From: Rhodopseudomonas sp. P2A-2r
GTDB taxonomy: Bacteria > Pseudomonadota > Alphaproteobacteria > Rhizobiales > Xanthobacteraceae
Direction of reading: 5' to 3'
Length of the DNA: 64,000 nt
Assembly: GCF_026015985.1 (NCBI RefSeq)
Contig: NZ_CP110389.1
Location: 6,356,001-6,420,000 of the forward strand
Shown here: one piece after another, positions 1 to 17,901 of the stretch
Layout: every line of letters begins with the position of its first letter
How positions within the stretch are numbered: the stretch's first letter is position 1
Made by a program: the position numbers and the translations under genes
The notes under the pieces: model-generated
Databases searched by the model: none
The model's input: only the letters and a program-made list of their open reading frames with translations
What the model was told of the DNA's origin: nothing

Positions 1-1165
1 CCCAGACTTCGGCCGAGTGCCGCTATCGCACGCACAATCGCCATGGCGGCCCGATCATCGAGGCCCGCGCGGACGAAAGATTGATCGATCTTGATTTTGT
101 CGAAGGGGAAGCTGCGCAGAGAGCTTAGGGATGAATAGCCGGTTCCGAAATCATCCATCGACACCCGTACGCCAAGTTCGCGAACCCGGCGCAAGACCTG
201 TAGCGCGGATTTGTCGTCTGCAAAGAGTACGCTCTCCGTGATTTCCAGCTCCAGCCGTCGCGGCTCCAGGCCACTTTCGGCGAGAGCAGACACGACCGTG
301 GCGGCAAGATGATTGCCGCTGAGCTGAACCGCCGAAACGTTGACTGAAATGCCGAGGGGCTCTGCCCAACTGGCAGCTTCGCGGCATGCAGTCCGCATCA
401 CCCATTCACCGATGGGGCCGATGAGACCGGTTTCTTCGGATAGAGGTATGAATTCGGCTGGCGGCACTGCCCCCTGCTTGCGCTATTCCACCGGAGCAGC
501 GCCTCGAAGCCAGTAATTTTCCTTGATTTCAGGTTATACTGGGGTTGATAGACCAGTGCGAATTCTCGCAGCGCAAGAGCGCGCCGCAAATCGATTTCGA
601 GATTGCGGCCGGCTTGCATCTCGTCGTCCATCGCCGTCTCGAAGAAGCAGTATCTGCCCCGGCCTTTCTGCTTGGCGCTACAGAGCGCCAGTTCTGCGTA
701 TTTTAAGATTTCGCTCCCGTCAGCGATTGGGCTTTGTGCGATCCCAACGCTGGCGCCGATATTGATGAGATGGCCTTTCAGCAGATAGGATCGGCTCAAC
801 AGGTCGATGAGCCACTTTGCCAATTGCGCCGCGGCCTGAGGTTGAGGTTGTTTGCTTTGCACGACATAGAATTCGTCGCCATCACAACGCGCGGCGAAAT
901 CGTCGCGCCCCAGCGCGGATTCGATACGGTGCGCTACCATGCGTAACAGCGCATCGCCTATATCATGGCCCAACGCGTCATTGACGGCCTTGAACCGATC
1001 CAGGTCGATCGCCAGTACGGAGACAACTTGTCGGCCGCGCTCGGAGAAGGCTGCCGCCAACCGTTCCCGCAATATCAGACGGTTGCCGATCAGCATCAGC
1101 ATATCGGAGCGAGCCTCCGCATGCTCCTTGTCGGCCCCCTTATCCGCAATGTCTTCGACTGTCAT
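1..1165 (-). CDS. GGDEF-EAL cyclic-di-GMP signalling protein, frameshifted and cut by the window edge
   Basis: A GGDEF domain fills about residues 20-175 and an EAL domain begins near residue 195. The GGDEF signature reads DGDEF (residues 95-99), so the first glycine is replaced and cyclase activity is uncertain. The EAL signature is intact in GFEALLRW (221-223 is EAL). After residue about 232 the frame breaks at a C5 run (470-474, G5 on the coding strand). One extra G would restore AVPPAEFIPLSEETGLIG and then the conserved MDDFGTGYSSL (about 129-165 on the plus strand), so the phosphodiesterase half looks intact apart from this one base. The C-terminus lies beyond position 1. The start ATG at 1165 has AAGG about 8 bases upstream. 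It lies downstream of the chemosensory-phytochrome operon on the same strand, so it probably makes or breaks c-di-GMP as an output, which is inference. Confidence 0.85.
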
Positions 1166-1606: not shown

Positions 1607-1984
1607 CTAGACCGCGCGTTGAAGAATCGACGACACGGCGTTCAGCAGCTCCTGCTTTTCAAAGGGCTTCAGCAATACCTGGTCGGCCCCGAAATCCTGC
1701 TCGGGCAGCCTCTCCCTCGATCCGCAACCATTAGGATCTCCACCGGTGATGGCCAGGAAGCGCGTTCCCGGCGACCGTGCCCGACCCTCGCGGATGACAT
1801 CGGTCCCGTTCGAAACGGGCATCCAGATATCTGTGATCACGAGGTCAAAGGGCGTATCTGTGAGCAGCTTCAATCCCTGCTCTCCATCCAGCGCGCTGGT
1901 GACGTTGTGACCTTGCCCCTCCAGAACGATTTTGAGCGACAACAACACCGCCGGAACGTCTTCAACTACCAATACCGCCGCCAT
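1607..1984 (-). CDS. Single-domain response regulator (receiver domain) downstream of the phytochrome kinase
   Basis: This 125-aa protein is a receiver domain alone, with no output domain. It has the acidic pocket near residues 8-9 (VVED), the phospho-acceptor Asp52 in VITDIWMP, a Thr/Ser switch region, and the conserved Lys in LLKPF near residue 107. Its start lies 23 bases inside the phytochrome gene, so the two are almost certainly co-translated, and it is the natural phosphate acceptor of that kinase. A lone receiver of this kind would act by protein binding, as CheY does, or by passing phosphate on. It is the last gene of the overlapping operon. The partner assignment is inferred from position, as is usual for bphP-response regulator pairs. 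Confidence 0.9.
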   Translation of the reverse strand: MAAVLVVEDVPAVLLSLKIVLEGQGHNVTSALDGEQGLKLLTDTPFDLVITDIWMPVSNGTDVIREGRARSPGTRFLAITGGDPNGCGSRERLPEQDFGADQVLLKPFEKQELLNAVSSILQRAV

Positions 1985-4727
1985 TTTTCATTTCTCCGTT
2001 GTTTCCCGGTATTAAGATTGTCACCGTCGTCCCGCAACCGGGCTCGCTGGCGAGCACAACCGAGGCACCGATATCGCGGACGAGGCCGTAGACGAGGGAG
2101 AGCCCAAGCCCTGTCCCCTGCCCAACGGGCTTCGTGGTGAAGAACGGTTCGAAGGCGCGATCCAACGTTGCCTTATCCATGCCGCAGCCACTGTCGATCA
2201 CACATAACCGCATGAAGCTGTTTGACAGAGCCAAATCCGCTTCCCCGTGTTCGCGAACGTCCTCTTCCAGAGCGATCGTCAATTCACCCTGACCGTTCAT
2301 CGCCGCCGCTGCATTGATAGCGAGATTTAGGAGTATCTGGACGAACGTGGTGCGGTCGATCTTGACCAGGGGCAGACGCCCCTCGATTCGGATCGAGATA
2401 ACAACGTCGGTCGGGACGGCTTGCCGCACGATCGGGAGGCTATCGTGCAAGAGTACGAGCGGATCATGGATTTCGCCGTTTGACACCGTCGGTCTGGAAA
2501 ACGCCAGCATATCTCCAATGATCTGCCGCGCCTTCATGTTGCAGTCGAGCACGATGTCGAGATGCTGCTTGCCCTCGCCGATGACCAGGTCCTTGTCGAT
2601 GACATCCTGGGCCAGAAGCGTGACCGGCTGGAGCATGTTGTTGATTTCGTGGGCGACCCCGCCCATCGTTCGACCGAGTGTTTCCATTTTCTGCCTCTGA
2701 GCTTCGGCCCTTTGCTTGGCCCCAATCATGACGATCGCTTCCCGCATTGCATCGTTTGCCGCACTGGCGGGATCAATCATATTCGATTGATCCACAACTG
2801 AGATGCCGATGCCGGATGCCAGGTGAAACAAACGTCCGCAGAGTTCATAGGGCACCGCAATCGCACGCCGAATCTCTTCACCGAGTTCAGCTGCCGCTGC
2901 TGGTTGCAGACCGCGGCAGAGCACGACAAATTCGGCGCCCCCTAGCCGCGCCGCAAAGTTTCCCGGACCTGCGGCGACGACCAGGCGCTGCGCCATTTCG
3001 ATCAGCAGTTCGTCCCCTGCCGCGTACCCCATAGTTTCGTTGATGTCCTTTGTCTCGTCGAGACTGAGGAACAGCAAAGTGACAACCGTCCCAGTCTCTC
3101 TTTCGGCCTCCGCTAGGCGCTTCTGTAGCAGCGTTCGATTGGGCAGCCCGGTCAGCGGATCGTGGTGGCGGAGTTCGAAAAGCTCGACTTTGGTGCGCTT
3201 GGCCACCTCCACCATGACTATGCTCCCCAGGTCGCGTGCGAGGGCTAGATCAGCCTCCACCCACGGCACGGAATGACCCGTCATGATCTCCTTCCATGCC
3301 GCGAACGAGGCACGCGGGGAGATTCGCTCGGTGACAGGGTCGATAGCGGCATGCTCGGCCGGGTTGCCGCCCCAGACAATCGTATGCGCCAGTTCAGGCC
3401 GGAACCACAGGATCGCGTCACCAGCACTGCCGGCGAGTGGCAGCAGCAGCGCGCCGCTACCTTGACTGGCGCAGCCGGCGAGATCGGGATAGGTTAAGGT
3501 CAAGTCGTCTACCGCCAACGCCCCGCCGCCAGCTTTCGGCAGCAGCAGCGCAAGGGCACGTTCCGCCTCGGGCTGCGATGGCGTGTCCCCGATGAAAAAG
3601 ACTTTCCCGGAAAGCCGCAACATCGCCCCAGCCGCATCCACCAGACCCAGGAGCTCCTGCCTTGCCGTGGCAAAGGCGTCCGACAACGAAACGGCGGCAG
3701 CGAGTCGATCGGCCAATGCACGCAAGATTGACGTTCGCCCAAGCCGCGTGGCCAGCATCTCCGCCTCGCTCAGACTACCGAGCAGCAGCGATAGGAACTG
3801 CCCCATCAAGTCGGCGACCACCCGCAATTCAGGCTCGACGATCCGCGGCGTTGTGTGATGGCACGCCATCATGCCCCAGAGATGCTCGCCGTCTGTAAGC
3901 GCGATCGTCAGACTTGCCGCCGTGTTCATATTACGCATATATTCGCGGTGTATCGGCGAGACGCTACGTAGCGCACTATGGGTGAGGTCGAGCGGATCGC
4001 AGTCATCCGACTCGGGATCCGTGAGCAGCAAAATCGGCCGATAGCTGGAATCGGCGACCGAGCCGACGCGCTGGCGCAACAATTGCCGCCTGGCCTGCGA
4101 TGGGATGTCCGCCGCAGGATACCACTGACCCAGATATGGCTTGAGTCCCGCCACACAGGCCTCTGCAATTATTTCTCCATGCCCGTGCGGGCTGAAGCGA
4201 TACACCATAACCCGATCATAACCGGCGATGGTGGCCAATCCGCGAACCGCGAGTTCGCATAGCTCGCTACAGGTGGCTGCACTCTCCAATGTCCCGAGCA
4301 CCGACTGCAACATGCTGACAACCAGTCCGCGCGGCCTGTCGGGCTGCATCGGCTCGATGTCAACGCAGAGATGGCGGCCGGATCGATAGGAGCGCAGTTG
4401 GAGAAGTCCGCCAGCCGGCCCGGGAAGAAGAAAGATCCGCTGGCGCGGCTCAACCCGACCGGCCGGCGCGACAACCTGCAGAACGTCGGCCGCCCCTTCG
4501 CCGATCACATGGTGCAGCGGCTGCCCAAGCGCCGCTTCGGCGGGACAGCCCAAAATCGCCGACAGATTGGCGCTGGCATGGGTCACCAGCCCGCTATCGA
4601 TCAGCGTCGCGAGCAGCGCGCCGTGCGGCTGAATAGCGCCGGGGATATGAATCGGCTCTTGCTCGCATCGCGACATATCAAGGGCGAGCGTAGCGAGCCG
4701 GGCGTGTGGCTGCTGTCCAACGTTCAC
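1962..4727 (-). CDS. bphP: Bacteriophytochrome histidine kinase with an inserted degenerate GGDEF domain
   Basis: This is a red/far-red photoreceptor kinase of 921 aa. The photosensory core is complete. Biliverdin-binding Cys21 lies just before EPIHIPGAIQPHG in the PAS domain. The GAF domain carries YPAADIP (203-209), SPIHREY and ACHH, which match the chromophore-pocket Asp and His residues. The PHY tongue has PRASF (471-475). Next comes a GGDEF-like domain (about 515-660), from HHDPLTGLPNR to GGAEF (596-600), where the catalytic Asp is lost. A HisKA-type H box follows (GGVAHEINN, His693), then an ATPase domain with N801 and GTGLGL (871-876). I chose the GTG start at 4727, which overlaps the bphO stop as GTGA and puts the Cys where the family has it; ATG 4676 would leave only three residues before the Cys and has no ribosome site. 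Phytochrome kinases usually have no GGDEF between PHY and kinase. Confidence 0.93.
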   Translation of the reverse strand: MNVGQQPHARLATLALDMSRCEQEPIHIPGAIQPHGALLATLIDSGLVTHASANLSAILGCPAEAALGQPLHHVIGEGAADVLQVVAPAGRVEPRQRIFLLPGPAGGLLQLRSYRSGRHLCVDIEPMQPDRPRGLVVSMLQSVLGTLESAATCSELCELAVRGLATIAGYDRVMVYRFSPHGHGEIIAEACVAGLKPYLGQWYPAADIPSQARRQLLRQRVGSVADSSYRPILLLTDPESDDCDPLDLTHSALRSVSPIHREYMRNMNTAASLTIALTDGEHLWGMMACHHTTPRIVEPELRVVADLMGQFLSLLLGSLSEAEMLATRLGRTSILRALADRLAAAVSLSDAFATARQELLGLVDAAGAMLRLSGKVFFIGDTPSQPEAERALALLLPKAGGGALAVDDLTLTYPDLAGCASQGSGALLLPLAGSAGDAILWFRPELAHTIVWGGNPAEHAAIDPVTERISPRASFAAWKEIMTGHSVPWVEADLALARDLGSIVMVEVAKRTKVELFELRHHDPLTGLPNRTLLQKRLAEAERETGTVVTLLFLSLDETKDINETMGYAAGDELLIEMAQRLVVAAGPGNFAARLGGAEFVVLCRGLQPAAAAELGEEIRRAIAVPYELCGRLFHLASGIGISVVDQSNMIDPASAANDAMREAIVMIGAKQRAEAQRQKMETLGRTMGGVAHEINNMLQPVTLLAQDVIDKDLVIGEGKQHLDIVLDCNMKARQIIGDMLAFSRPTVSNGEIHDPLVLLHDSLPIVRQAVPTDVVISIRIEGRLPLVKIDRTTFVQILLNLAINAAAAMNGQGELTIALEEDVREHGEADLALSNSFMRLCVIDSGCGMDKATLDRAFEPFFTTKPVGQGTGLGLSLVYGLVRDIGASVVLASEPGCGTTVTILIPGNNGEMKNGGGIGS

Positions 4728-5350
4728 GGTTGGCCGACTTTCAAGGCGCAAAACGGCGCAAACCAGACCATCATGGCCCGAAAGGTTCGCTGCGCGCCGT
4801 CTACTACCTCGACACAATGTTCCGGCTCCATGTATCCAAACTCATCCAACGCCAATCGAAATTCTTGCCACGCCGGACCAACCGCGCCGCCCCGTCCACC
4901 GAAGAACTGCGTCGTTCCGGCAATCGCGGCGCCAATCCGCGGCTCGATGTCACGCAAGATCATCCGCCCGCCGAGTGCAGCTCCTTCGATGACGTAAAGT
5001 GCGCCGATCGCGTGCGCAAAGGTCGGCAGATCGGGCACCAGTGCCGGCGAAGCCCGCGGCAGTTCGCGCGGATCAACGCCCAGACCAACAAGATCATCAA
5101 CCAGGGCGCAGGAGTGGTGGCGCGGGGGCGTCAAGAGGCCGAGTGAATCCCAGCCGGCGAACTTCGCCAGCGAGTGCTCGAGCGGATCGTAAAATCCGAG
5201 GAAACGGCCGAGCCAGTCCTGATAGTCGCCGCGGTTGCAAATGGCGCCAGGCAGCCGAAGCAGGACCTCGATCTCTCGATGCAGAGGCGCGGTCCGTTGC
5301 CGCAGCTGCGCCGAAAGCGGTATGAATGGGTCCTGCATTCGCGGCCTCAC
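4724..5350 (-). CDS. bphO: Biliverdin-producing heme oxygenase (BphO)
   Basis: BphO opens heme to biliverdin IXalpha, the chromophore of the phytochrome encoded next to it. The 208-aa length fits the family. The proximal heme ligand is likely His24 in the segment [12 protein letters not shown], and the distal helix has [16 protein letters not shown] (about 116-131), which closely matches bacterial HO/BphO proteins with their Gly-rich kinked helix. Two starts are possible: GTG at 5350, which overlaps the receptor stop as GTGA and has AAGG upstream, or ATG at 5338 with GAGG 8 bases upstream. The 3' end overlaps the bphP GTG by 4 bases. The bphO-bphP order is the common one in bacteria, and sitting inside the che operon ties chromophore supply to chemosensory expression. 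Confidence 0.93.
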
Positions 5351-6558
5351 GAGAGAGCCTTATTTTCCGCGGCCAGCTGCGAGGCAGGCCCCATGCCCGT
5401 GCCGATATCCTCAAGCTTACTCTTCAACGCATTCATATGGCCATCGACCGAATTCGCCGTCTCCAGCACGATTTCCGACAACATCCCGCTATTGGAAGCG
5501 ATCTGAGCCGCCTCGCGGATTTCGCGCGACAGCGTGAACACCGCGTCCCGCATGCTTTCCAGGTTTGTGGAGACCCGCGTGGCCACGCTCTCCTGCTCGA
5601 TAAGGGCCTTTCCAATTGAACCGCTGGCCGCATCGACGTTCGCAATTGTTCCCACCAGAGCTTGCAGTGACTTCACACTCTCGGCGACCATGCCGGTCAT
5701 CTCGGCGATCTTCTGACCGATCGTATGTGTTGCCTCTGCGGTCTGGTGCGCAAGTTGTTTCACCTCATTGGCCACTACAGCGAAACCCTTGCCAGCCTCG
5801 CCGGCGCGCGCCGCTTCGATACTCGCGTTGAGAGCCAGCATCCTGGTCTGCCGGGCGATAACGTCGATCATCTTGGTGACATCGGACACCGATCGCGAAA
5901 GCGTCGCCATGGTTTCGACGCAGCCCCTTGTGATCTCCGCCTGGTCGGAGGCTTCCCTAACAATTGCAATCGAGCGCTTAACTTCTGAGCCGATGAACCG
6001 GATAGAACCGCTGAGTTCGCTGCCGAATGCATTCAGTTGCTCGATGCCGCTTTCAGCATCAACCGCACGCGACATAGCGCCCTTAAACTGATCCTTCGCC
6101 TGAGTCGATGCGATGGCCATCTCGTTTGCCATCTCGCGCATTTGGTGATTGTCGGCGAGCACAGTATTCACGGAGGTGTCGACCTGGTCGACAATTGCCG
6201 AGCCGAACAATCGCATTGCGGTCTGCATATCCTGCGCGGTACCCGAGTGAACGCCTACGAGCACCCGTGAATGAGTGCCCGGGCGAGGCTCGTCTACTGT
6301 CAGTTCTTCGGCGGCGGCTTCCATCGCGCGGACAGGAAGTCGCGGCGGATCGACTTCGATAGTGGGGGGCCGGTAACGTCTTATCGCCGCTAACAGCGAA
6401 ATTCCGGTGACCACCGCGCCAAGCATCCGCGCCAAAAAGGGCGTATCGGGCGTTATCATGATGGCAACGCCGCACGCGACGCTGGCAAGCATCGGCACGA
6501 GCACGATCCGTGGCGTACGGACGCTAACAAAGGTCGATGCCGGGAGGGCAATGGTCAT
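5347..6558 (-). CDS. Methyl-accepting chemotaxis-type receptor without a periplasmic sensor domain
   Basis: This 403-aa receptor has two adjacent hydrophobic segments (about 17-36 and 42-59) with only a few residues between them, so it has no room for a periplasmic ligand domain. The rest is a long cytoplasmic coiled coil with one signalling hairpin. Its tip (about 230-270) carries the MCP signature [20 protein letters not shown] followed by FAVVANEV. Glu/Gln/Ala-rich heptads flank it as methylation helices. The input must therefore come from the membrane, the short linker (60-105), or cytoplasmic partners. It overlaps the upstream unknown gene by ATGA and the downstream bphO by GTGA, so receptor, BphO and BphP are made together. 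I infer that it couples the array to light sensing or energy state; the sequence does not show a ligand. Confidence 0.9.
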
Positions 6559-7058
6559 CCGGCGGACTCTTCTCGGCTGCTGCCCCTGGCGCCGTTTCGT
6601 CCCGCAGCGAAAGAAAATTGGCGAACGGCGTTATTGTGTACCTCGCGCTGCTCTTCTGAGACATATAGCGCCGCCAAATCGTTTAGCGACAGCCGTGCGT
6701 CGGACGACATATCAACGACGGCCATGCGTTCGAGGGCCGTTACCACGCAGTCGACGGTTTGGCACGTGAAGTCATTGCGCTGGGCCTGCGCAAAGGCGAG
6801 ACTTTCGAGCGACCGATTTATTTTGGCTTCCGCCGCGATCGCGGCTTTGCATTCCTCGTATAGATTGGAATCAGAATCACTACAGCGCTTCGAAAATTCG
6901 AGGACCAGACCTGACAACAGTGAAAGCACGTCGGATGTTTGCCATAGCAGTTCGACCGTCGCGCCGATATCGATGCGACCGCGAAGCTCAGAGACTTGCG
7001 CCGCGAGCACGGCGCAAACGAGCTTATCGCTGGCTTTGGTATCGAATTGCATGGCCAT
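6555..7058 (-). CDS. Unknown helical protein within the chemosensory operon
   Basis: I do not recognise this 167-aa protein. It has no signal peptide or membrane segment, is predicted mostly helical by eye, and has Cys residues near 59, 69, 99 and 104. The region [17 protein letters not shown] and the later [15 protein letters not shown] resemble short helices that could pack as a bundle. A CheZ-like or receptor-binding adaptor role is possible but rests only on position between cheY and a receptor gene. It starts 4 bases after the cheY stop and ends in an ATGA overlap with the receptor, so it belongs to the operon. The C-terminal tail (about 145-167) is low complexity and probably disordered. 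Confidence 0.7.
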
Positions 7059-7062
7059 TTCC

Positions 7063-7434
7063 TCAACTCGACGGCAGAAGCTGCTTTAGCGCGGTGAGCA
7101 ACTCGTTGGGCTCAGTGGGCTTGGTGAGCCACGCCGAAGCGCCCGCCGCACGCGCCTCGTCCCGCTTCTGTCCGCCGGATTCGGTGGTCAGCACGATGAT
7201 CGGAGTGAACCGGGTCGATGCCGACTTCCTGGCCTCCTTGATAAAAGTAATGCCATCCATCTGCGGCATGTTGATATCCGTAAGAATGACGCTCGGCTTA
7301 AGGCCACCGGCAAGCTTGGCCATGCCTTCCTTGCCATTGCTCGCAGTCTCGACTTCATAGCCGGCGCTTTTCAGGATACGCGACAGGCTCATGACCATCG
7401 TGGCCGAGTCGTCAAGAATAAGGATCGCTGGCAT
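7063..7434 (-). CDS. cheY: CheY-type response regulator
   Basis: This 123-aa single receiver domain has Asp8-Asp9 in LILDD, the phospho-acceptor Asp53 in ILTDINMP, the switch Thr in VLTTES, and Lys in LTKP (about 105). Its size and sequence are those of CheY, which takes phosphate from CheA and binds a motor or other target. It lies between the STAS-like gene (3-base gap) and the unknown helical gene (4-base gap). Two more lone receivers are in the same operon (10025-10447 and 1607-1984), so one may be the output and another a phosphate sink; the sequence alone cannot assign these. Confidence 0.92.
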   Translation of the reverse strand: MPAILILDDSATMVMSLSRILKSAGYEVETASNGKEGMAKLAGGLKPSVILTDINMPQMDGITFIKEARKSASTRFTPIIVLTTESGGQKRDEARAAGASAWLTKPTEPNELLTALKQLLPSS

Positions 7435-7437
7435 GAC

Positions 7438-7728
7438 TTAATTTTCCAATTCAAATACGGGCTCGGCTTCAACAACCTGCACTGAAGGCATTTCAATTGA
7501 ATGAAGGATCGGCTCAAGCCAGCGGGCGATCTCCGGGTTTGCGGGCGGGCCTTTCATCGGCAACCGCGCAATTAGTACCATTTGAAAGCAAGCCGCGTGC
7601 AGATGGCTACACCCGCACCAGTCGATCAGATCCGCTCCGGTCTGGAGATGCTGCAACAGGGCCTCAGCGTCCTCGACGGCACAGACGCCTTCGAGAAATA
7701 TCGTATCGCCAGCGCGCCGGACGGTCAT
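7438..7728 (-). CDS. Small STAS-like protein of the chemosensory operon
   Basis: This 96-aa protein begins with the beta-strand pattern seen in STAS domains (DTIFLEGVCAVEDAEALLQ) and goes on with a Cys/His-rich segment (IDWCGCSHLHAACFQ, about 36-50). That is where STAS anti-anti-sigma proteins have their helix-2 loop. Similar short proteins are found next to cheA in some alphaproteobacterial che clusters. It overlaps cheA by ATGA upstream, and cheY begins 3 bases after its stop. It probably binds CheA or a receptor; whether it is phosphorylated is unclear, because the usual STAS Asp-Ser motif is replaced by Cys-Gly-Cys-Ser. The Cys and His cluster could also bind metal. The family call is moderate. 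Confidence 0.65.
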   Translation of the reverse strand: MTVRRAGDTIFLEGVCAVEDAEALLQHLQTGADLIDWCGCSHLHAACFQMVLIARLPMKGPPANPEIARWLEPILHSIEMPSVQVVEAEPVFELEN

Positions 7729-10028
7729 TGGATCAACTCCTTGAGATCGAGCACGAGCAACACGCGGCCGTCACCGAGCAAGGCAGTCCCGGCATATCCC
7801 GCAATCTTCGCGAGCATGCCTTCAAGCGGCTTCAGGATGACTTCCATTCCTTCACCGAAGGCCGATATCCCAAGTCCGATCGTTTGCCCGTTGACGCGGA
7901 CCACTAGTACGGCGATCTCCTCGCCCGCGGCCGGTTCGCCTGGTAGATCGAGAAGCTGAGTTAATCGAACAAGCGGAACCACCCGATCGCGCAGAACAAA
8001 AGCCTCGCATTCCTTGATACGAACGATATCGCTGCGAAGAACTTTCACGATCCCCTCGATCAAATCCATCGGAACGCCGAACAGGTTGTTGCCCAAGGCT
8101 ACGGTCATCACCCGGCTTACGGCCATGCTGAGTGGCAGGTCGATCCGGACCGTCGTGCCGGCGCCCTTGACGCTGGTCATCGCGATGCGGCCACCGGCCT
8201 TCTCGACAGCGTTGCGTACCACGTCCATACCGACGCCTCTGCCGGAAACGTCGGAGATGGTCTCAGCCGTCGAAAAACCCGCGGCGAACACCAGCATCGT
8301 GGCCTCGTCGTCGGTGATGGTGGCAAGACGCATCTCGTCGATCAGCCCGCGTTCGTAGGCCTTGCGCTTTATTGCATCCGGATCGATACCGCGTCCGTCG
8401 TCGACGACTTCGATCACCACCTGGTCGCCATCGCGCCGCGCCAGTAGCTTTACTCTCGCGGTACTCGGCTTGCCGAAGGCCAACCGTTTTTCGGGCGATT
8501 CGACTCCATGGTCGAGGCTGTTGCGGACCATGTGCAGCAGCGGGTCGAACAGGCTCTCGATGACGTTCTTGTCGGCCTCGGTATCTTCGCCTTCGATGAC
8601 AAGATCGACCTGCTTGCCTAGTTTGCGTGCCAGGTCGCGCACCAGTCGCGGAAACCGCTGAAATACCTGACCAACAGGCATCATGCGGATAGCCATCACG
8701 GCACCCTGCAGCTCCTGCGCAATGCGGTCAATGACGCCGTACTGATCCTTGATCTCGTGGCTGAGTTCGCGCGAGCCAAATTGCTGTTCGGCCCGCCGCG
8801 CGAGGAATGGCAGGCTGTTCTTTGCAACCACAAGCTCGCCGATCAGGTTCATCAGCGCATCGACCTTCTGCTGATCTACACGCAGCGTCTTTGGTCCTGC
8901 TCGTTCGGTTGTGTCGCCTGGTCCGGACTGGACTGCTTGTCCTGACATAGCCTGTTCTGGGACATTGTTCGCCGAATCGACCCCGGGTCGAAGCAGATCA
9001 GCGATCGCATTGCGCAGCGGCGCGGTCCATCCTGCGCCGAGCGACTCGGCTTGCGCCGTTTCGAGTATCGCAGCGTCTTCGGAATACCCGGCGAAGCACA
9101 ATGCGTTTGCGGCAACTCGAGCCGCGGAAGAGACCCGCCCTGCAAACTCTTCCAGCGGCGCATCAAACTCGAGCAGATCAATCTGCTCCCGCAGCAGCGC
9201 CTCGACCACGGCAGGCAAGACGATCCCGGATGCGACCTCGCTCAGCGAATCGGCCAACGCCGAAGCGGTAATCTCGGTGATCGTCACCTGATCAGGAACG
9301 CATCGGAAGAGCGTCTCCAATTCCGGACGGTCTGCCGTTGACAAGGCATGGAAGCCCAGATTGCAGCTGAACGGATTGAGATCGTAGAGCGCCGGCCAGG
9401 GCAGTCGCTCTTCGATGCCGAGCGCCTGCAATTGCGGAATCTGCATTGCCAAATGGAGAGGGTCTTCGCCTTTGAAGAAGCAGCCTTCCTCGGGCAGGTA
9501 GGAGACTAGGCTAATCGACTCTTCGCGAGCCGCTATTGCAGCATTCGCGATCATTTCTTTCCCAAACCAACGGCCGAGCGAGACGGCCGGACTGGAAGCG
9601 TTTGCTTTGGGAGCAAAGGGGTTAACGAGCGCTTCGATCGGCCCTTTGTTGAAACTCCCACGCAGCTCGGCGACCAGCTCCCTTGCGATCGGCGCCGCAT
9701 CGCCCGGAAGTGCCTCGTGGCGATCGAGATGCTCGATCCATCGTCCTACCTGATCCAGGGTCTTTAGCGTGAGATCGGCCATTTCCGGCGTCAGCAGAAG
9801 CGAATGCTCTCGTACCGCCTGGAAAATGTCCTCTCCCGCGTGCAGAAGCTGGGTAAGGGGTTGAACGTCGAACAGGCCCGACGATCCCTTGAGCGTATGA
9901 ACCGAGCGAAACAGGCGATTGATGGCCTCCTGATTGTCAGGGGCGCGCTCGAGCGCCAGCAGGTCCTCACCGGCCTCCTGCAGCAAATCGCGTGCCTCGG
10001 CGACGAATTGGGCGAGCAGCTCGTTCAT
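7725..10028 (-). CDS. cheA: CheA chemosensory histidine kinase
   Basis: This 767-aa kinase has the full CheA order. The P1 histidine phosphotransfer domain (1-110) carries His44 in VHTLKGSSG. A P2-like domain (about 155-260) would bind response regulators. P3 dimerisation helices (383-440) include KVDALMNLIGELV. The P4 ATPase domain (445-632) has the N box LLHMVRNSLDHG (His499, Asn503), the G1 box DDGRGID, and the G2 region around GFSTAETISDVSGRGVGMD. The P5 CheW-like domain fills 635-767. It takes signals from the receptors through the triple CheW and passes phosphate to CheB, CheY and the other receivers here. It overlaps the response-regulator gene upstream and the STAS gene downstream by 4 bases each. 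All key residues are present, so the kinase should be active. Confidence 0.97.
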   Translation of the reverse strand: MNELLAQFVAEARDLLQEAGEDLLALERAPDNQEAINRLFRSVHTLKGSSGLFDVQPLTQLLHAGEDIFQAVREHSLLLTPEMADLTLKTLDQVGRWIEHLDRHEALPGDAAPIARELVAELRGSFNKGPIEALVNPFAPKANASSPAVSLGRWFGKEMIANAAIAAREESISLVSYLPEEGCFFKGEDPLHLAMQIPQLQALGIEERLPWPALYDLNPFSCNLGFHALSTADRPELETLFRCVPDQVTITEITASALADSLSEVASGIVLPAVVEALLREQIDLLEFDAPLEEFAGRVSSAARVAANALCFAGYSEDAAILETAQAESLGAGWTAPLRNAIADLLRPGVDSANNVPEQAMSGQAVQSGPGDTTERAGPKTLRVDQQKVDALMNLIGELVVAKNSLPFLARRAEQQFGSRELSHEIKDQYGVIDRIAQELQGAVMAIRMMPVGQVFQRFPRLVRDLARKLGKQVDLVIEGEDTEADKNVIESLFDPLLHMVRNSLDHGVESPEKRLAFGKPSTARVKLLARRDGDQVVIEVVDDGRGIDPDAIKRKAYERGLIDEMRLATITDDEATMLVFAAGFSTAETISDVSGRGVGMDVVRNAVEKAGGRIAMTSVKGAGTTVRIDLPLSMAVSRVMTVALGNNLFGVPMDLIEGIVKVLRSDIVRIKECEAFVLRDRVVPLVRLTQLLDLPGEPAAGEEIAVLVVRVNGQTIGLGISAFGEGMEVILKPLEGMLAKIAGYAGTALLGDGRVLLVLDLKELIQ

Positions 10029-10447
10029 GCGACGCTCCTTCCGAGCAGGGCGGCGACATAAAGTGCAAGCTGATCCCGTGAGACCGGCTTGACCAGATAG
10101 GCATTGGCGCCCGCCTTGAGCGCGGTTCGATGATCCTCCGCGCAGGCTTCGCTCGTAGTCATGAGCGCCGGCATCGCATGCGTGATCGGTTCCCGCCGCA
10201 GCGCATGCAGGAAGGTGTAGCCGTCCATCATTGGCATGTTGACGTCAACGATACAGAGATCGAACGGTGTCTGAAGCGCCTTCTCTAAGCCCTCAATGCC
10301 GTTGATTGCCTCTTCCACGCGGTAACCTTCGCGTTCAAGGATCTGCCGATAGTAGAGCCGGACGACGGTTGCGTCATCGACGACGAGAATCTGTGGAGAC
10401 GAATCTTCTGGAACCGGCTCCGCCGACGTTACCAAGTGCATGTTCAC
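10025..10447 (-). CDS. Single-domain response regulator between CheR and CheA
   Basis: With the GTG start at 10447 this is a 140-aa receiver domain preceded by about 17 unstructured residues. It has Asp24-Asp25 (LVVDD), the phospho-acceptor Asp68 in CIVDVNMP, and Lys in YLVKPVS. The GTG overlaps the cheR stop as GTGA and has GGAGG five bases upstream, a better site than ATG at 10441. A longer frame running back to 10564 lies inside cheR and is not needed. Its place directly before cheA suggests it is a CheA substrate. The Thr/Ser switch region reads ALMTTSEA. Confidence 0.9.
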   Translation of the reverse strand: MNMHLVTSAEPVPEDSSPQILVVDDATVVRLYYRQILEREGYRVEEAINGIEGLEKALQTPFDLCIVDVNMPMMDGYTFLHALRREPITHAMPALMTTSEACAEDHRTALKAGANAYLVKPVSRDQLALYVAALLGRSVA

Positions 10448-11316
10448 CGGGGACCTCCACGTTTCTGGTAGACGATCGCCTGCGGAAATTTTCTGACCTC
10501 GAACAACGAAGATATCCGGCTCATTGATTCTGAATGCCCCAGACAGATAAAGCCTCCCTGACAAAGACTGTCGTAAAACGACTCGACAACTTGTCGCCTG
10601 GAGCGGTCATCGAAATAGATCAGCATGTTGCGGCAGAAGATAACATCGAGGCTGGCGAACTGGCGCATCTCCGCGACATCGCTCGCATTCACCTTCGTGA
10701 AACGCACAGATTGGCGGATTGCGTCGATCAGCCGGAAACCTTCCGCCCCTGCCGACACGAAATATTTGCGCACCAGCGACGGCAAAAGCCGATGCAGCGA
10801 CCTTGCGTCGTATTTGCCGTCTTCCGCCGCGCGCAGGACATTGGTGTCGATGTCGGACGCCATGATTTCGATGTCGTAGTCATCGACCTGCGCCCAGTTC
10901 TCGAGAAGGTACATGGCTATCGAGTAGGGCTCTTCTCCGGTCGAGCACGGCATCGACCAGATGCGGATACGGTCGCCCTTGCGGCGGTCGGAGACCAGTT
11001 CGGGAAGAATACTGCTGACCAGGCACTCAAGCTGGTGATCCTCGCGATAGAAATATGTCTCGTTGATGGTTAGCAGATTGATCAGGATTTCGATCTCGCC
11101 GGCAGCGTCGTGCCGCCGCAAGCGCTCGAAGTAGTCGCTCGCGCCAGCGGCGCCGCTCTTCTGAATGCGGTCAATGAGACGCTTGTCGACAAAATACCGC
11201 TTGTTGTCGCCAAACGAGATACCGGTACGTCGATAGAAATATTCGCAAAATTTCTGATACTCGACTTCGCTGATTGAATGCGTTGCCGTGGGGCGTTGCG
11301 CCAGGACCGGCATCAC
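10444..11316 (-). CDS. cheR: CheR chemoreceptor glutamate methyltransferase
   Basis: CheR methylates receptor glutamates with S-adenosylmethionine for adaptation. This 290-aa protein has the N-terminal helical domain, the NETYFYRE motif (85-92; NETxFFR in the family), the SAM pocket SMPCSTGEEPYS (121-132), and the second conserved segment DVIFCRNMLIYF near 230-240. The length is normal for CheR without a TPR extension. It starts in an ATGA overlap with the HEAT-repeat gene and ends in a GTGA overlap with the receiver gene. It should act on both receptors in this operon, whose coiled coils have the usual Glu/Gln heptads. Confidence 0.96.
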   Translation of the reverse strand: MMPVLAQRPTATHSISEVEYQKFCEYFYRRTGISFGDNKRYFVDKRLIDRIQKSGAAGASDYFERLRRHDAAGEIEILINLLTINETYFYREDHQLECLVSSILPELVSDRRKGDRIRIWSMPCSTGEEPYSIAMYLLENWAQVDDYDIEIMASDIDTNVLRAAEDGKYDARSLHRLLPSLVRKYFVSAGAEGFRLIDAIRQSVRFTKVNASDVAEMRQFASLDVIFCRNMLIYFDDRSRRQVVESFYDSLCQGGFICLGHSESMSRISSLFEVRKFPQAIVYQKRGGPR

Positions 11317-11936
11317 GCGCCCCGCGGATCGTTGCAGCGGATGCGGTCACAGGCGATGTCGATGGCGAACACGAGGAAGGGCTCTCCGGCGAAGCGAGTA
11401 CGAAGCCCGTAGAGCGCCGCCAGTAACTCTTTCGTCCCAACCTCTGTCGCTACATCCACAGCCGCAGCACAAACATTGACGTGCGGCTCGTGCTCGAAAA
11501 CGCGCAGCAACCGCGGGTTGGCCACTTCGCTCGGCCACGCCCTCGTGACTTCAATGGCGAGAATACGGACGTCAACGTCCGACTCGTTCATAAGCGCGTC
11601 AAGCACGGTTACAGCATCATTGTCCAGACGTTTCAGTGACTCGATGGCACCCCCACGCAGATTGGCATCATCGCTGCGGATAAACGAAGCGATCAATTTG
11701 GCTGCCAGCGCTCCGCCGATATCGGCCAGACTGCCGAACAGAGCGTCGCGTACCCGGGGATCAGGCTCACATTCGAGGCGGGCAGCCAGAGTGGCTGCTG
11801 CAGCCGGGTTCCCGGACAGGGCGCGCGCCGCACGCCGCCGTTCGTCGACATCATTGCCGGTTAACTGATCCTCACGAAGTTCGAAAGTTTCAGTTTTCGT
11901 ATGCGGCACATCGGAAGCAAATCTCACTAATGGCAT
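11313..11936 (-). CDS. HEAT-repeat protein inserted between cheB and cheR
   Basis: From ATG 11936, one base after the cheB stop, this is a 207-aa protein. It has helical repeats in which Arg/Asp-rich turns alternate with Leu/Ala helices (for example ERRRAARALSG, DPRVRDALFGSLAD, DANLRGGAIESLKR, DVDVRILAIEV, HVNVCAAAVDV). These are HEAT/PBS-lyase-like repeats spaced about 30 residues apart. Such repeats form protein-binding solenoids. HEAT-repeat proteins of this kind occur in some alternative chemosensory clusters, but their partner is not established to my knowledge. The gene is translationally linked on both sides, so I infer a structural or adaptor role with CheB, CheR or the receptors. It has no signal peptide or membrane segment. 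Confidence 0.8.
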   Translation of the reverse strand: MPLVRFASDVPHTKTETFELREDQLTGNDVDERRRAARALSGNPAAAATLAARLECEPDPRVRDALFGSLADIGGALAAKLIASFIRSDDANLRGGAIESLKRLDNDAVTVLDALMNESDVDVRILAIEVTRAWPSEVANPRLLRVFEHEPHVNVCAAAVDVATEVGTKELLAALYGLRTRFAGEPFLVFAIDIACDRIRCNDPRGA

Positions 11937-11937
11937 G

Positions 11938-13008
11938 TCAGTTCGTCCATCGCCGGAGTTGATCTGCAACTCGCTCGATCGGGAGCACAATCGTAGCTCC
12001 GCCGCGCTTTACCAGTTCGCCAGGCATTCCCCATACAACCGCGGTATCCTCCGACTCCGCGATGGTCCGGCCGCCGCGCGACTTTAGCTCGGCCATGGCG
12101 CGCGCACCGTCGTCACCCATGCCGGTGAGCATGACCCCGAGAAGATGCTCCGGGGTTACATGCTCCAGCGCGCTCTCGACCAAGCGTTCTACACTTGGAT
12201 GCCAGTTGTGCAGCGGAGACGCGGGAACCGGAATGGCAGCGAGAACACCTGCGCGGACGACGACCAGAAAGTCGGCGTCTCCGCGTCCGACATAGGCGAC
12301 ACCGCCTCGCAGCGGCATCGGCCGAGTTACCTCGACGACTTCGAGTTCTGACAAACTATTGATCCGACGTGCAAACACCCCGGTGAAGCTTTCAGGCATG
12401 TGCTGCGCGATCAGGATCGGCCAAGGAAAATTACCCGGCAGCCGCGGCAGAACCGTCTCGATCGCGCCCGGTCCTCCGGTCGATACACCGATCAGAACCA
12501 CTCCTTTTGCCGTACCTGAACCTCCAGTTCTCGCGCTACTTGCCGAACGCCTCGCGTCTTCTACCGACTGGGCGCGGTGGCGGACGCGATCGAGAAGTCC
12601 GCGGCTCTTGCTGATGCGTGCTCTCGCGGCACTGCGAACCTTGGCAACCAGCGCGACCCTGATCTTGTCAATGTGCAGCGAGACCGTGCCGTCCGGTTTA
12701 GGAATGAAATCTACGGCGCCGAGGCTCAGCGCCTGCAGCGTCACCTCCGCGCCTTCGCCGGTGATCGACGAAACCATCACCACGGGCTTTGGACATTCGA
12801 CCATGATGCGACTGAGGCAAGTGATCCCATCCATCTCCGGCATGTTCACGTCGAGCGTGATCACGTCGGGAGCTATGGACCGCGCCATCGACAATGCTTC
12901 CGCGCCGTTGCGGGCAAAACTCACCTCGAAATCGCCTTCGGCTTTGAAGATGTCGCCCAGACACTTGCGCATCAGGGCGGAATCGTCGGCAATCAGGAGC
13001 TTAAGCAT
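11938..13008 (-). CDS. cheB: CheB receptor methylesterase/deamidase
   Basis: CheB removes methyl groups from receptors when phosphorylated by CheA. The N-terminal receiver domain has Asp8-Asp9 and the phospho-acceptor Asp53 in ITLDVNMPEMDG. A basic linker (about 120-165) leads to the esterase domain, whose triad is present as Ser176 in GVSTGGPG, His203 in AQHMP and Asp300 in TGMGDDG. The 356-aa length is normal. Its start lies 8 bases inside the 3' end of the triple CheW gene, and the next gene starts 1 base after its stop. With cheR it gives the operon a full adaptation loop. Confidence 0.97.
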   Translation of the reverse strand: MLKLLIADDSALMRKCLGDIFKAEGDFEVSFARNGAEALSMARSIAPDVITLDVNMPEMDGITCLSRIMVECPKPVVMVSSITGEGAEVTLQALSLGAVDFIPKPDGTVSLHIDKIRVALVAKVRSAARARISKSRGLLDRVRHRAQSVEDARRSASSARTGGSGTAKGVVLIGVSTGGPGAIETVLPRLPGNFPWPILIAQHMPESFTGVFARRINSLSELEVVEVTRPMPLRGGVAYVGRGDADFLVVVRAGVLAAIPVPASPLHNWHPSVERLVESALEHVTPEHLLGVMLTGMGDDGARAMAELKSRGGRTIAESEDTAVVWGMPGELVKRGGATIVLPIERVADQLRRWTN

Positions 13009-14631
13009 TCGCCGCGCTCAGTTCTTCGACCGCAGCGCGTTGCCTGGCTCCACCGGAGGTTTCCTCAAGCGTCGCAATCTCGTGTCTTTCCAGCAGATGA
13101 TCGGTGTCGATCAGCAGGATCATTCGCTTTTGTTTCTCGAGATTGGCGACGCGCGATATGATGCGCGCCTGTTCCTCAGAGAGCGAAGGTGTCGGTCCGA
13201 TCGAATTGCGTGGAATCTTCAGGACTTCGGAGACCGAATCGACGATGAATCCGGTACGCACACCATCAATCGTGAACACCATGATCCGCTGGCGGTCGTT
13301 GCGCTCGATATCATCGAGATCGAACCGCGTCCGCTGATCGACTACCGGCAGTACCGCCCCCGGAGGTTCACGACACCCTTGATGAAACTAGGAGCCTTTG
13401 GCAAACGCGTCAGTGTATCGGGGACTCGTACGATCTCCTGTACGGAACCGATCGGGGCGCCGTATTCCTCGTCGGCGAGGCGGAACACCACGAACTGCTC
13501 TTCCTCCGCCAGCGCGGTCGCGCCGTCGACCTGGTCCGCAGCCATGATGTCCTCCACGTTTCCCTCTGAATCGACGTTCTCTGCCGCGCGACGAACTACC
13601 TCGTTCTCAAACAAGGCTTCCGCCGACAGCACCGAAACCAGTCGTTTGCCACCGTTCAGCCGGCAAATGCCCTGGATCTCGCCGTTGGCTTTCCCACCCC
13701 GCATCAGGCTCGGCACCGGATCGAGCATGTTGCGGTTCACGCGCAAGACTTCCTTGACCGTATCCATGACGATTCCAACCGAGGACTGGTCGGGCAGCGG
13801 CACCACCACGATCTTGTTGCGGTCATCGAGCGCAACCGCAGGCAGGCCGAACATTTCACGCAGGCTGACAAGCGGCAGCAGCCGATTGCGCAGCGTCACC
13901 ACGCCAAGGACATGCGCATCGGTTTTGGGCATCCGGTTGATATGGTCGGGAACCTGGACGATCTCCTGAACGTTCTCGATCGAAAGCGCGTATTCCTGTC
14001 CGGCAACCTCGAAGCTCACAAGCTGCATTTCGTCGGTCGTCGCGGTCGCCTGTTCCACGACTGCGTCGATCTCGCCGTTACCAGCTTTCTGAGGGCCTCG
14101 ATGCCCCGAGCCAGAATCGCTTTCGAAAAGCCGAACGGGGTCGAGAATCATGATCATCCCTTTCCCGTCGGCCGTCTTGATCATGCCGCGCAGAAGATCG
14201 GTATTGACCGTCGCCTCGATCGAACTAACACTTTCGATCTGATCGAGCGCCGCTGTCACAACTGCCGACATCCGGTCGACGACGAGGCCAACGGGGATGC
14301 CTTGATTGATAACGACCACGCGCGTTGCGTCGTTGTGTTCGACATTCGGGTAACGGAATATCCGCCGCAGACTGGTGACGGACATTACTGTGCCGCGCAG
14401 ATTCGCCAGACCTTCTAGGCTTTCGTGACTGAGGGGCACCTGAATGATCTCAGGCATCCGAATAATTTCCTGCACTTCGGCGAGCGGGACCGCGAAGATG
14501 CCGTCGTCGATGTGGAAGGTGACGTACTGCCGGTTTTCGCCGGTTGAGTTGACGTGTTGCCGGTTGTCTCCGGCCGGTTCATCCACCGGAGACAGTGGCG
14601 GGGCGTCGATCAGGTCTGATTCCATATTCAC
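13001..14631 (-). CDS. cheW: Triple-domain CheW coupling protein (frameshifted in the read sequence)
   Basis: Three CheW domains lie in tandem: about 34-170 (QYVTFHIDDGIFAVPLAEV), 200-345 (LVSFEVAGQEYALSIENV) and 378-535 (FVVFRLADEEYGAPIGSV), each with an NLRG-type segment. The third domain breaks after VVNLRG at a C5 run (13357-13361). One more base there would read on as AVLPVVDQRTRFDLDD in the frame that ends at 13001, giving 543 aa. Because the continuation matches CheW so well, I think the base is missing from the sequence rather than from the organism. CheW links receptors to CheA; a three-domain form could cross-link arrays. The gene starts 17 bases after the soluble receptor stop, and cheB overlaps its end. 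Confidence 0.9.
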
Positions 14632-14648
14632 GAGCGTAACCTTTCCAA

Positions 14649-16580
14649 TTAATCTCGTGAGTTCTGGAGTTCGTCGGCGAGCGAGGCTATTTCCTCGACT
14701 GCGACCGCCAATTCCTCGGCACCCTTCGACTGCTGTTTCGCCGCGCTTGCTGCCTCGACAGCTCCCTTGCTGGCCTGGTCTGCTGCGATAGCAATCTGCT
14801 GCGTCGCCTTCTGCGCTTCCTGTACCGCGGTCAGGATGATGTCCGCACCCTTGAGGATTTCCTCGTTGCCGCTCAGCACGATCGCCATGTCCTGCTCAAC
14901 CATTGCGAGGTTAGTCGTGATGGCCTTATTGTTCTGCACTTCCACCACAGCTGCCGCGGCAATCTGCTCCAGATCGCGCCGGACCGCGACAATCTGGTCC
15001 TGGGTCGCCTTGACGACGTCCTTGATGCGGTCGGCATTCTCCGCTGATTCCCGCGCGAGGTTGCGGATGTCAGTCGAGACCACCATAAAACCCTTGCCGA
15101 ACTCGCCGGCGCGGGCCGCCTCGATCGATCCGTTGATCGCCAGCATATTGGTCTGAATCGACACCGTCGTGATCGAGTCGACGATCTTGTCGATACGCCG
15201 GCTGACCTGCTCCAGCGTGGCGATGAGCTCGCCGCTCTTGTTGGTCTCTTCCAGCCCCTTGGAGACGCCCGAGATGAGTTCTTCGACCGCAGAGCGACTT
15301 GCCTTCACCAGGTCGGAGATTGTACGACCTGATTCCAGCCCGGCCTTCGCACGCTCCTGCGATAGCGCAGCGCCCTTTTCGATTTGGGAGTTGCCGGCGC
15401 TCGACTGCTGTGCGGCGGCGGCGGCCTGTTGCGATCCTTTGTTGATTTGCTCAATCGCCGCCATGATCTGGGTCGCCGAGCCGCTGATTTCCTGAACCGC
15501 GGAAGATAGCTGCTCGGCCGCGGAAGCCATTTCCTCCGCGCTTTTCGAAATGTCGGTGCTGTTCTTCAGTTCGTCGGCAAGCGTGGACAATTCTTCCGAC
15601 GCGGTCTGGCTTTGGTTCAGCGCCACGTTCTGCTGATCGACCGTCTTTAAGGCCTCTTCGCAGGCCGCCGACTGCTCGGTTGCCGCCGCCGCAATCTGCT
15701 CCGAACCCTTCTGCACTTCCTTGGTGGCCAGGTCGGACTGCAGCGCCGCGCTTGCGATTTCTGTGCTTCCCGCAACGATCCCAAGCATGTCGGACCGCGC
15801 CTTTTCCAGCTGCACGGTGACGGCTTTGCCCTTCTCGGCTTCAACTCGGGCCGCCTCGGCCGCTCCGTTGATGCCGTCGGCGATGGTCTTAACTTCGCCT
15901 TGAATCTGGCCAACGAGGCCCTGGATTTCGCTGGCGCTCTTTTCGGACGTCTCAGCCAGAGCTCTTACTTCATCGGCGACTACCGCGAAGCCTTTGCCGT
16001 GCTGGCCCGCCCTGGCTGCCTCGATGGCGGCGTTGAGGGCAAGCAAGTTGGTTTGATCGGCGATGCGCGCGACCGCTTTCACGATTTCGCCAATGTCGGC
16101 TGCCTGCTTTTCAAGTTCGACGACCATTTGAACGGAAGCGAGTTGGCGGTCGGCGCCAGCACCGATATTGGCGACCGAGGCGCTGATCTGAGAGTTCAGC
16201 TCTCCGAGCAGAGCCTGCAGCGCCTCGGATTTCTGCCGCGAGATTTCGGCCTTCTCCTTCGCCTGGGTCACGCCGGTGGCGATATCGGTCACCGCGACGA
16301 GCGATTGCTGCGCGGCGCCAGATGCCTCTTCGGCGCCAGCCGCTATCTGCTCCATCGACTTGGAAAGTTCCTGCGCTGCCGAAGCGGATTCGCTGATTGC
16401 CGAAGCCATTTCCGCCGTCGCGGCTGCAACTCGCTCGGCGACCTTCTGCTGGCGCGCAAAGGTGCGGGCCCGCTTGCGCTGGACTTCAGCCTGGCCAGCA
16501 CTGCGATCGGTACCGCTAGAAGTATGCCCGAATTCTTCGCGCCGGGCCGGCCCAATCTGTGCTCGCTTGGCTAAAGTCAT
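14649..16580 (-). CDS. Soluble chemoreceptor with two MCP signalling hairpins
   Basis: From ATG 16580, with GGAGA upstream, this is a 643-aa cytoplasmic receptor without membrane or sensor domains. It is Ala/Glu/Gln-rich coiled coil throughout. It carries two complete hairpin tips, at about 170-214 ([21 protein letters not shown]) and 466-514 ([21 protein letters not shown]). Each is followed by the typical FAVVADEV- or [12 protein letters not shown] strand. A tandem pair of MCP signalling domains is uncommon. It is the first gene of the operon. Possible reasons include contact with two arrays, or a fused receptor dimer, but neither is shown by sequence. Input must come from partner proteins, for example the HEAT or STAS-like proteins or the phytochrome. 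Confidence 0.9.
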
Positions 16581-17250: not shown

Positions 17251-17481
17251 ATGTCTGATAGAAAGTTTCTGACCGCCGAAGAAGTGTCTGAAAGATATCG
17301 TGGCAGTGTTTCAATTGGCACTCTTCGAAATTGGCGAGCGATGAAGGTAGGCCCAGCCTTCGTCAAAATTGGCAAGGCCGTTTTGTATCCGACGAATGAG
17401 CTTGATGCCTGGGATCGGAAGAATACGGTGACGTGCCGCGCGTCAAAAGGACTCGACGTGGATAAGGATGAAGAAGCGTGA
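17251..17481 (+). CDS. Small HTH protein (excisionase/AlpA-like)
   Basis: This 76-aa protein has the helix-turn-helix layout of the HTH_17/excisionase group: LTAEEVSERY (recognition of the start helix), SIGTLRNWRA and a wing-like GPAFVKIGKAVLYP followed by ELDAWD. It has a good ribosome site (GGGAGAGG, 4 bases before ATG). Such proteins control excision or transcription in integrated elements. It sits just before a radC 3' stump, so it may be the last survivor of an element that cut radC. The C-terminal tail is acidic. Function as a regulator or excisionase is inferred from fold and position. Confidence 0.75.
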   Translation: MSDRKFLTAEEVSERYRGSVSIGTLRNWRAMKVGPAFVKIGKAVLYPTNELDAWDRKNTVTCRASKGLDVDKDEEA

Positions 17482-17589
17482 GAATCCCAGACGAGCACAC
17501 AGAACCGCTCCCAATTGCCGCCCCCTCACAGATAAATCAGCTCTCTAAAACGATTAATTTTCAATACGTTACGTGAGAGAAGAAGACTC

Positions 17590-17751
17590 CTGCACAATCA
17601 TCCCAGCGGCGACCCGACGCCGTCACAGGCCGACGTGCAGATGACACGGTCAGTGATCGATGTCGCAAAACCGCTGGGGATCGCGGTGCACGACCACATC
17701 ATCGTCGGCAAGAACGGGCATGCGAGCTTGAAGGGCCTGAAGCTGATCTGA
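17590..17751 (+). pseudogene. radC: 3' remnant of radC (JAB/MPN domain)
   Basis: In frame from 17593 the sequence reads [18 protein letters not shown] and ends as [10 protein letters not shown] at a TGA (17749-17751). This is the C-terminal third of RadC with its JAMM metal motif HxHPSG. No start codon or upstream radC sequence is present; homology begins abruptly next to CAC 17593. The upstream 110 bases are unrelated and join it to the HTH gene. This marks a recombination or deletion end point. The rest of radC should be sought elsewhere in the genome. Confidence 0.85.
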
Positions 17752-17780
17752 ACGCTTTGTTCTGGGTCCCCACCACGGCC

Positions 17781-17882: not shown

Positions 17883-17901
17883 AACCTCGATGGAACGAGC
17901 C

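Follow-up and report, generated by a model that had tools for sequence, protein, structure and literature searches.

We have identified, in Rhodopseudomonas sp. P2A-2r, a chemosensory operon of 14 genes that includes a bacteriophytochrome (BphP) and a heme oxygenase (BphO). The window, that is the whole stretch of DNA analysed, is 64,000 nucleotides long. The parts are known, namely a Che2-like cluster and a BphG1-like phytochrome; what is new is a phytochrome built into a chemosensory operon. No che operon with a phytochrome or BphO was found in the titles and abstract openings of the open-licence literature searched. The reading that we favour, with moderate confidence, is that of a Che2-like operon with a red/far-red sensor in its kinase slot, where a branch from BphP to the lone receiver RR_C would run parallel to CheA and the whole unit would be carried as cargo of a genomic island.

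The genes are tightly packed on the minus strand and read from position 16580 to 1607 (Table 1). Coordinates, strand and gene content, first read from the sequence alone, were verified from open reading frames, Pfam and junction measurement, and the view of the set as a single overlapping unit holds. Six junctions are 4-base overlaps (HEAT-CheR, RR_A-CheA, CheA-STAS-like, hyp167-MCP2, MCP2-BphO and BphO-BphP) and most others are short gaps, four of them of 1-4 bases. The spacing between MCP1 and CheW is 17 bases, BphP and RR_C overlap by 23 bases, and CheB is overlapped over 8 bases by the frameshifted CheW tail. The start of MCP1 is the ATG at 16580, in a frame open from 16613. The BphP frame opens at 4817, and its start was set at the GTG at 4727 because several close homologues begin with MN there and the GTGA overlaps the bphO stop codon. 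Promoter-like sites (2, against 4.9 in shuffled sequences) and terminator-like sites (16, against 14.7) were no more frequent than expected by chance, and no tRNA was found in window positions 1-25000.

Table 1. Features of the operon, of the interrupted radC gene and of the gene that follows the operon (window positions unless stated otherwise).
Feature	Position	Strand	Basis or remark
MCP1, soluble, two MCP signalling hairpins	14649..16580	-	Pfam MCPsignal 1.3e-55, two stretches
Triple-domain CheW, frameshift-broken	13001..14631	-	Pfam CheW 1.2e-74 and 6e-10; sequence
CheB	11938..13008	-	Pfam CheB_methylest 1.8e-51 and Response_reg
HEAT-repeat protein	11313..11936	-	Pfam HEAT_2 5.1e-14; start picked by position
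CheR	10444..11316	-	Pfam CheR 1.4e-56 and CheR_N
RR_A, lone receiver	10025..10441	-	Pfam Response_reg 6.1e-27; start picked by position
CheA (Hpt, dimerisation, ATPase and CheW domains; no receiver)	7725..10028	-	Pfam
STAS-like small protein, invariant His (H44-x-A-x-x-Q)	7438..7728	-	STAS_2 in homologues; alignment
RR_B, lone receiver	7063..7434	-	Pfam Response_reg 2.3e-25
hyp167, 167 aa	6555..7058	-	Absent from fetched relatives (tblastn 1e-3)
MCP2, two N-terminal membrane stretches	5347..6558	-	Pfam MCPsignal 8.9e-28; hydropathy
BphO, heme oxygenase	4724..5350	-	Pfam Heme_oxygenase 2.3e-11
BphP, 921 aa	1962..4727	-	Pfam PAS_2, GAF, PHY, GGDEF, HATPase_c
RR_C, lone receiver, predicted BphP partner	1607..1984	-	Pfam Response_reg 5.8e-19
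GGDEF-EAL gene, frameshifted, extends beyond window	1..1165	-	Pfam GGDEF, EAL; EAL end in L197
radC 3' part, right end of 30.6-kb island	17587..17736	+	RadC model 69-118
radC 5' part	G000:C1:6342739-6342969 (left of window)		Integrase directly after

A complete Che core with a triple CheW had been described; all of its genes are present, but cheW is frameshifted as assembled. Three CheW domains are encoded, the third of them split as assembled. The open frame ends at 13342, inside the third domain, with two domains and part of the third in 13342-14631 and the remainder of the third in another frame (13001-13282). In all ten family loci checked both parts lie in a single open frame, and by reading of the sequence the break is a base missing from a G-rich stretch, which may be due to sequencing error. 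The GGDEF-EAL gene past the operon is likewise frameshifted in an apparent G run (window 1-620). As judged from the letters themselves, both breaks fall within runs rich in G, and sequencing error is their likely cause. The remaining 13 operon genes are all open.

Relatives of the operon were collected through CheA searches, which gave 106 fetched che loci at 102 places (four places were fetched twice). They come from the family (149 genomes, of which the ten best non-self CheA matches were used), from named genomes (the best 80 of at least 547 confirmed stretches), from the Roseomonas sp. GC11 family, where 14 of 377 genomes had CheA at E<=1e-140, from one congener (G154) and from G273. Of the 106 loci, 84 have the order MCP1-CheW-CheB-HEAT-CheR-REC-CheA, with the proviso that MCP and receiver queries cross-match. 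All five genes from CheB to CheA are present in 94 loci, and 91 of these keep their order. Because this seven-gene order recurs so often, the gene order of the operon is no chance assembly. By tblastn at 1e-3, CheA is matched in 106 loci, CheB in 101, CheR in 96, the HEAT protein in 94 and the STAS-like protein in 82; the counts for receptors and receivers are loose owing to the cross-matching. The records are mainly from several classes of Proteobacteria and, among the matches listed, also include metagenome-assembled contigs labelled Acidobacteria and Fibrobacteres. Among 385 genomes of the class, two besides the window's own have this CheA at E<=1e-120, and the best plasmid-borne CheA proteins among the matches listed are 45% identical over 98% and 50% over 85-86%.

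The closest characterised relative among the matches listed is CheA2 of Rhodospirillum centenum, 59% identical to the operon CheA over 64%. As described in part of the study cited, the R. centenum Che2 system has a three-domain CheW and controls lateral flagella; it shares with the operon the triple CheW (frameshift-broken here), CheA, CheB, CheR, a CheY-like protein and small extra proteins, and that part of the account mentions no phytochrome or BphO for the cluster (PMC2890560). By Pfam, the operon CheA has no receiver, whereas CheA2 is fused to one, and for this reason we call the operon Che2-like rather than Che2. Judged by its sequence, it resembles this widespread cluster type rather than the flagellar-motor kind. 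The proposal of an output other than motility thus gains some ground by analogy, Che2 controlling lateral flagella and not taxis. Elsewhere in the P2A-2r genome there is a separate CheA at 2.24 Mb, and flagellin matches occur at two places, six in total and five above the cut-off.

Neither receptor has a ligand domain, as the sequence-only reading had it: MCPsignal is the only Pfam match above the cut-off in both MCP1 and MCP2. By hydropathy, MCP1 is without a membrane stretch and MCP2 has two near its N-terminus. The small protein after CheA has no direct Pfam match, and we call it STAS-like through its homologues, 18 of 25 of which contain STAS_2 at E<=1 (best 5e-5). A histidine in the motif H-x-A-x-x-Q is invariant in 25 of 25 aligned sequences; it presumably lies near the usual position of the STAS phospho-serine and is a possible candidate phospho-acceptor. 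The protein hyp167 belongs to no Pfam or NCBIfam family, gave nothing significant in a sequence search of the PDB and is found in 0 of the 106 fetched loci (tblastn 1e-3). It contains a D-F-T-C-Q stretch that, we assume, resembles the CheZ phosphatase motif, and it was considered as a CheZ and rejected on the outcome of these same family and PDB searches. A single-sequence structure model of hyp167 shows helices throughout, though its quality is low (mean pLDDT 42.8).

BphP consists of PAS-GAF-PHY, a degenerate GGDEF domain and a histidine kinase (Pfam). C21, Y176, D207, H260 and the PRASF motif, which we take to be the biliverdin cysteine and pocket positions, are conserved, as expected of a bacteriophytochrome, and Cys21, D207 and H260 are invariant in seven aligned proteins. 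The output is a histidine kinase (HATPase_c 4.1e-18) with the phospho-acceptor histidine of HEINN invariant in the alignment, and at the level of sequence the earlier description of the phytochrome as intact is borne out. In the GGDEF domain, serine replaces the first metal-binding aspartate and GGAEF stands for GGDEF; both positions have the roles known from PleD. With these two conserved positions lost, synthesis of c-di-GMP by BphP seems unlikely from its sequence. The GGDEF letters are kept in some homologues (P0009, P0012, P0013 and P0015).

A 'EAL domain-containing protein' (so named in its record) of Cereibacter sphaeroides, presumably BphG1, is 51% identical to BphP in the photosensory half and 45% in GGDEF, and the BphO encoded beside it is 45% identical to that of the operon. 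The two loci have in common a bphO directly upstream, a similar photosensory half and a GGDEF domain; they differ in that the Cereibacter protein ends in EAL, whereas in BphP the GGDEF is degenerate and the last domain is a histidine kinase. The neighbours of the Cereibacter gene are nap genes, and there is no che gene in the stretch examined. Residues 18-624 of BphP match PDB 5llw, which we take to be IsPadC. PHY is joined to GGDEF in both, but GGDEF is the last domain of the matched chain (685 aa), whereas BphP continues to the kinase. According to a table in the part of the source drawn on, BphG1 is a diguanylate cyclase and IsPadC an active cyclase (PMC8846402). Among 3,625 plasmid records, the 20 BphP matches listed are BphG1-like EAL proteins that cover about 70% of it or, for three records from Shinella, two pieces that cover 80-83% of BphP at 33-34%. 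Phytochromes with photosensory halves 50-53% identical, followed by a GGDEF match, were also seen in four genomes of one genus of the family (L192-L195, from G108, G1352, G1310 and G067); the 20 kb fetched around them contains no che gene of the operon.

Is the link between phytochrome and che genes conserved? Among the 106 che loci, neither the photosensory half of BphP nor BphO was matched (0 each; tblastn 1e-3), where 83 loci reach at least 6 kb beyond CheA and the remaining 23 could hide either gene. Searches for a BphP of the same architecture covered overlapping sets of genomes. The window's own copy aside, none of the matches in 61 relatives extended into the kinase half (E<=1e-60; best 14 candidates per genome), and the same holds for 397 genomes of the order (E<=1e-78) and 391 of the family (E<=1e-86), with the best 2 candidates per genome considered in both. 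A conserved cheA-bphO-bphP order across Nitrobacteraceae, named earlier as something to look for, therefore finds no second instance among these 391 family genomes. At least 32 further PHY-GGDEF-kinase proteins of the same kind as BphP are, however, found among the 120 best matches listed, and these may be metagenomic. The sizes of the longest contigs of BphP homologues were compared with those of CheA and MCP2 homologues, using the 120 best matches for each; some protein clusters in these lists represent several contigs. Of the 25 BphP-type contigs that are 4,000 bases or longer, nine are equal in size to the contig of an MCP2 homologue (seven: 7023, 10185, 16951, 17487, 22706, 38604 and 55274) or of a CheA homologue (three: 20001, 22706 and 52388), and contigs that found no match, 104630 and 198522 among them, are not counted as unlinked. 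When sizes were shifted by 1-50 bases either way, the mean number of matches was 0.07 for MCP2 and 0.08 for CheA, with maxima of 2 and 1. The match at 20001 may be a round-number coincidence, leaving eight. Given these exact coincidences in size, we infer that eight or nine contigs carry the BphP type together with MCP2 or CheA, and the linkage looks conserved.

In many relatives, the slot after CheA holds a histidine kinase, and a receiver is often part of the same protein. The kinase half of BphP matches something in 55 of the 106 loci (tblastn, E<=1e-3), some of these being unrelated nearby kinases; 51 loci are without such a match, partly because they are short. Taking the 45 kinase frames on CheA's strand at E<=1e-8 (two pairs of which are one place twice and two of which lie upstream of CheA), 24 have an RR_C-like receiver in the same protein and 21 do not. 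Most kinases in the fetched loci share just 30-38% identity with that of BphP, a short piece in L171 being the exception. The kinases closest to it (at least 50% over the domain, among the matches listed) carry differing sensors: PHY-GGDEF, PHY-PAS (P0033, P0035), or PAS or GAF only. Two of the PAS-kinases are on contigs equal in size to those of CheA relatives (552850 and 264084 bases), and three PAS- or GAF-kinases on contigs equal in size to those of MCP2 relatives (7023, 10221 and 55274 bases). P0029 from Rhodovastum atsumiense, also among these closest kinases, has a GGDEF domain and an N-terminus without domain assignment; it does not occur in the 20 kb taken from either side of and across the che genes of Rhodovastum. 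In L171, a gene of the P0029 form lies about 670 bases after the STAS-like gene and is cut by the contig end.

Beyond the sequence itself, every step of how the operon may work is inferred. BphO would make biliverdin, which BphP would bind, and red or far-red light would alter BphP autophosphorylation. Phosphate would then pass from BphP to RR_C, a transfer predicted because the slot kinases of relatives so often carry an RR_C-like receiver in the same protein; against it stands that BphP and RR_C are separate genes in the operon. In parallel, CheA would be driven by MCP1 and MCP2, which, being free of ligand domains, may sense membrane or cytoplasmic state, and would phosphorylate RR_A, RR_B or both. 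The two branches may meet at a common output, by analogy with R. centenum Che2 most likely surface appendages or another lifestyle switch and not tumbling. The main competitor, which we consider rather unlikely, makes the phytochrome the sensor of the array: its kinase half would dock on CheW or a receptor, light would alter CheA, and all receivers would report light. The receptors without ligand domains fit this, as does the R. centenum Ppr kinase domain, for which the part of the report cited describes binding to CheW and a possible complex with CheAY (PMC2993699). A Ppr mutation is nevertheless described, in a passage of another source, as having no obvious effect on phototaxis (PMC5812497), and relatives often keep in the slot a kinase with its own receiver behind various sensors, as a parallel two-component branch would. 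The phytochrome is thus still plausible as a sensor, with its pocket residues conserved, but it more likely signals to RR_C than to the array, for which we rely on the 24 of 45 kinase frames that carry an RR_C-like receiver.

It is improbable, in our judgement, that bphO, bphP and RR_C are a light two-component system that shares a promoter with the che genes by chance and is not coupled to them. BphP and RR_C are indeed self-contained, and the 106 fetched che loci are devoid of a phytochrome; on the other hand, contigs equal in size to those of MCP2 are found down to about 52% BphP identity (P0023, P0025), and contigs size-matched to MCP2 or CheA are likewise seen for kinases of this group that carry different sensors. 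We give very little credence to the operon being a decaying island passenger without function in this strain, as the frameshifts in cheW, the GGDEF-EAL gene and the integrase frame might suggest: the other genes are open, and the breaks in cheW and the GGDEF-EAL gene are of the kind that sequencing error would give. Least probable of all is that BphP acts mainly as a light-controlled diguanylate cyclase in the manner of BphG1. Its BphG1-like sensor and GGDEF domain, the GGDEF letters retained in the four homologues named above and the GGDEF-EAL and BLUF genes that come after the operon speak for such a role; the substitutions at the first metal aspartate and in GGAEF speak against it. The c-di-GMP output that had been proposed through the following gene fares in a similar way, in that the gene is there but is separate and frameshifted, and the GGDEF domain of BphP itself is degenerate.

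Phytochromes and Che arrays are as a rule separate subjects of study, and the evidence of contact drawn on here, between Ppr and CheW, is biochemical (PMC2993699). Like BphP, Ppr is a phytochrome-type histidine kinase linked to a Che pathway; it differs in having a PYP domain, with no GGDEF named and gene linkage unstated in that part of the text (PMC2993699). The Pix/Tax1 operon of Synechocystis, as outlined in a section of a further source, also encodes a bilin photoreceptor with CheA, CheW and receivers, but there the bilin GAF domain is within the MCP itself and the output is pili (PMC5812497), whereas BphP is a kinase without a membrane stretch that comes with its own oxygenase and receiver. 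The genes, their apparently conserved linkage and the argument from fused partners together offer, in one operon, a testable system of light to array or light beside array. More tentatively, we propose that the chemosensory genes form a transferable module whose kinase slot takes plug-in sensors: phytochrome-GGDEF, phytochrome-PAS, GGDEF with another N-terminus, and PAS or GAF would be exchanged ahead of a single type of kinase, red/far-red light would gate the output of a Che2-like array, and this array as a whole would move on integrative islands between uncultured bacteria. The operon also hints that the cargo of an island can include a chemosensory array, and that such an array can exchange the sensor in one of its slots. 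This is relevant to the ways in which arrays gain inputs and to the role of red light in bacteria outside laboratories. As related bacteria appear to keep the light sensor near the same genes, light may control a change of lifestyle and not simply swimming.

The operon seems, from its sequence context, to have moved in as cargo of a 30.6-kb island integrated in radC. RadC of this genome is in two pieces, matching positions 2-78 and 69-118 of the model with 30,618 bases between them, and is whole in 15 of 17 congeners; in the others it covers 2-110 near a contig end (G149) or only 2-78 (G152). The target is thus split, with an integrase at one end, and whole in kin. The integrase frame is of phage type, with an arm-binding domain above the Pfam cut-off and a core domain below it; the catalytic part is seen by eye in another frame. 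This frame, too, appears broken by eye, and assembly errors are possible for such breaks. The junctions share only 7 exact bases, within similar stretches, and a 17-base repeat near the ends was rejected as an end repeat, the radC break being elsewhere. In G153, an assembly with 8% contamination, a whole radC is accompanied by a second copy in which about 24.5 kb interrupt the gene at the same point (G153:C125:19931-44832), which suggests that this point may be an integration hotspot. In Mesorhizobium, according to a published account cited here in part, radC is a known site of ICE/IME integration (PMC8627217). The GC content of the operon is 0.600, against 0.639 for 18-64 kb of the window, yet 54-58 kb is equally low. 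Of the 17 congeners, some of which are incomplete, G154 is the only one with a further CheA of this class (38% identity).

The GGDEF-EAL gene lies 441 bases past the operon on the same strand. It is followed, to the left of the window (L197, G000:C1:6336001-6356000), by a gene for a BLUF blue-light receptor (L197:19332-19775; PF04940, 1.1e-27), and the island thereby carries both red- and blue-light sensors. Two genes of the choloylglycine hydrolase family are also present on it (L197:11014-12093 and 16813-17910).
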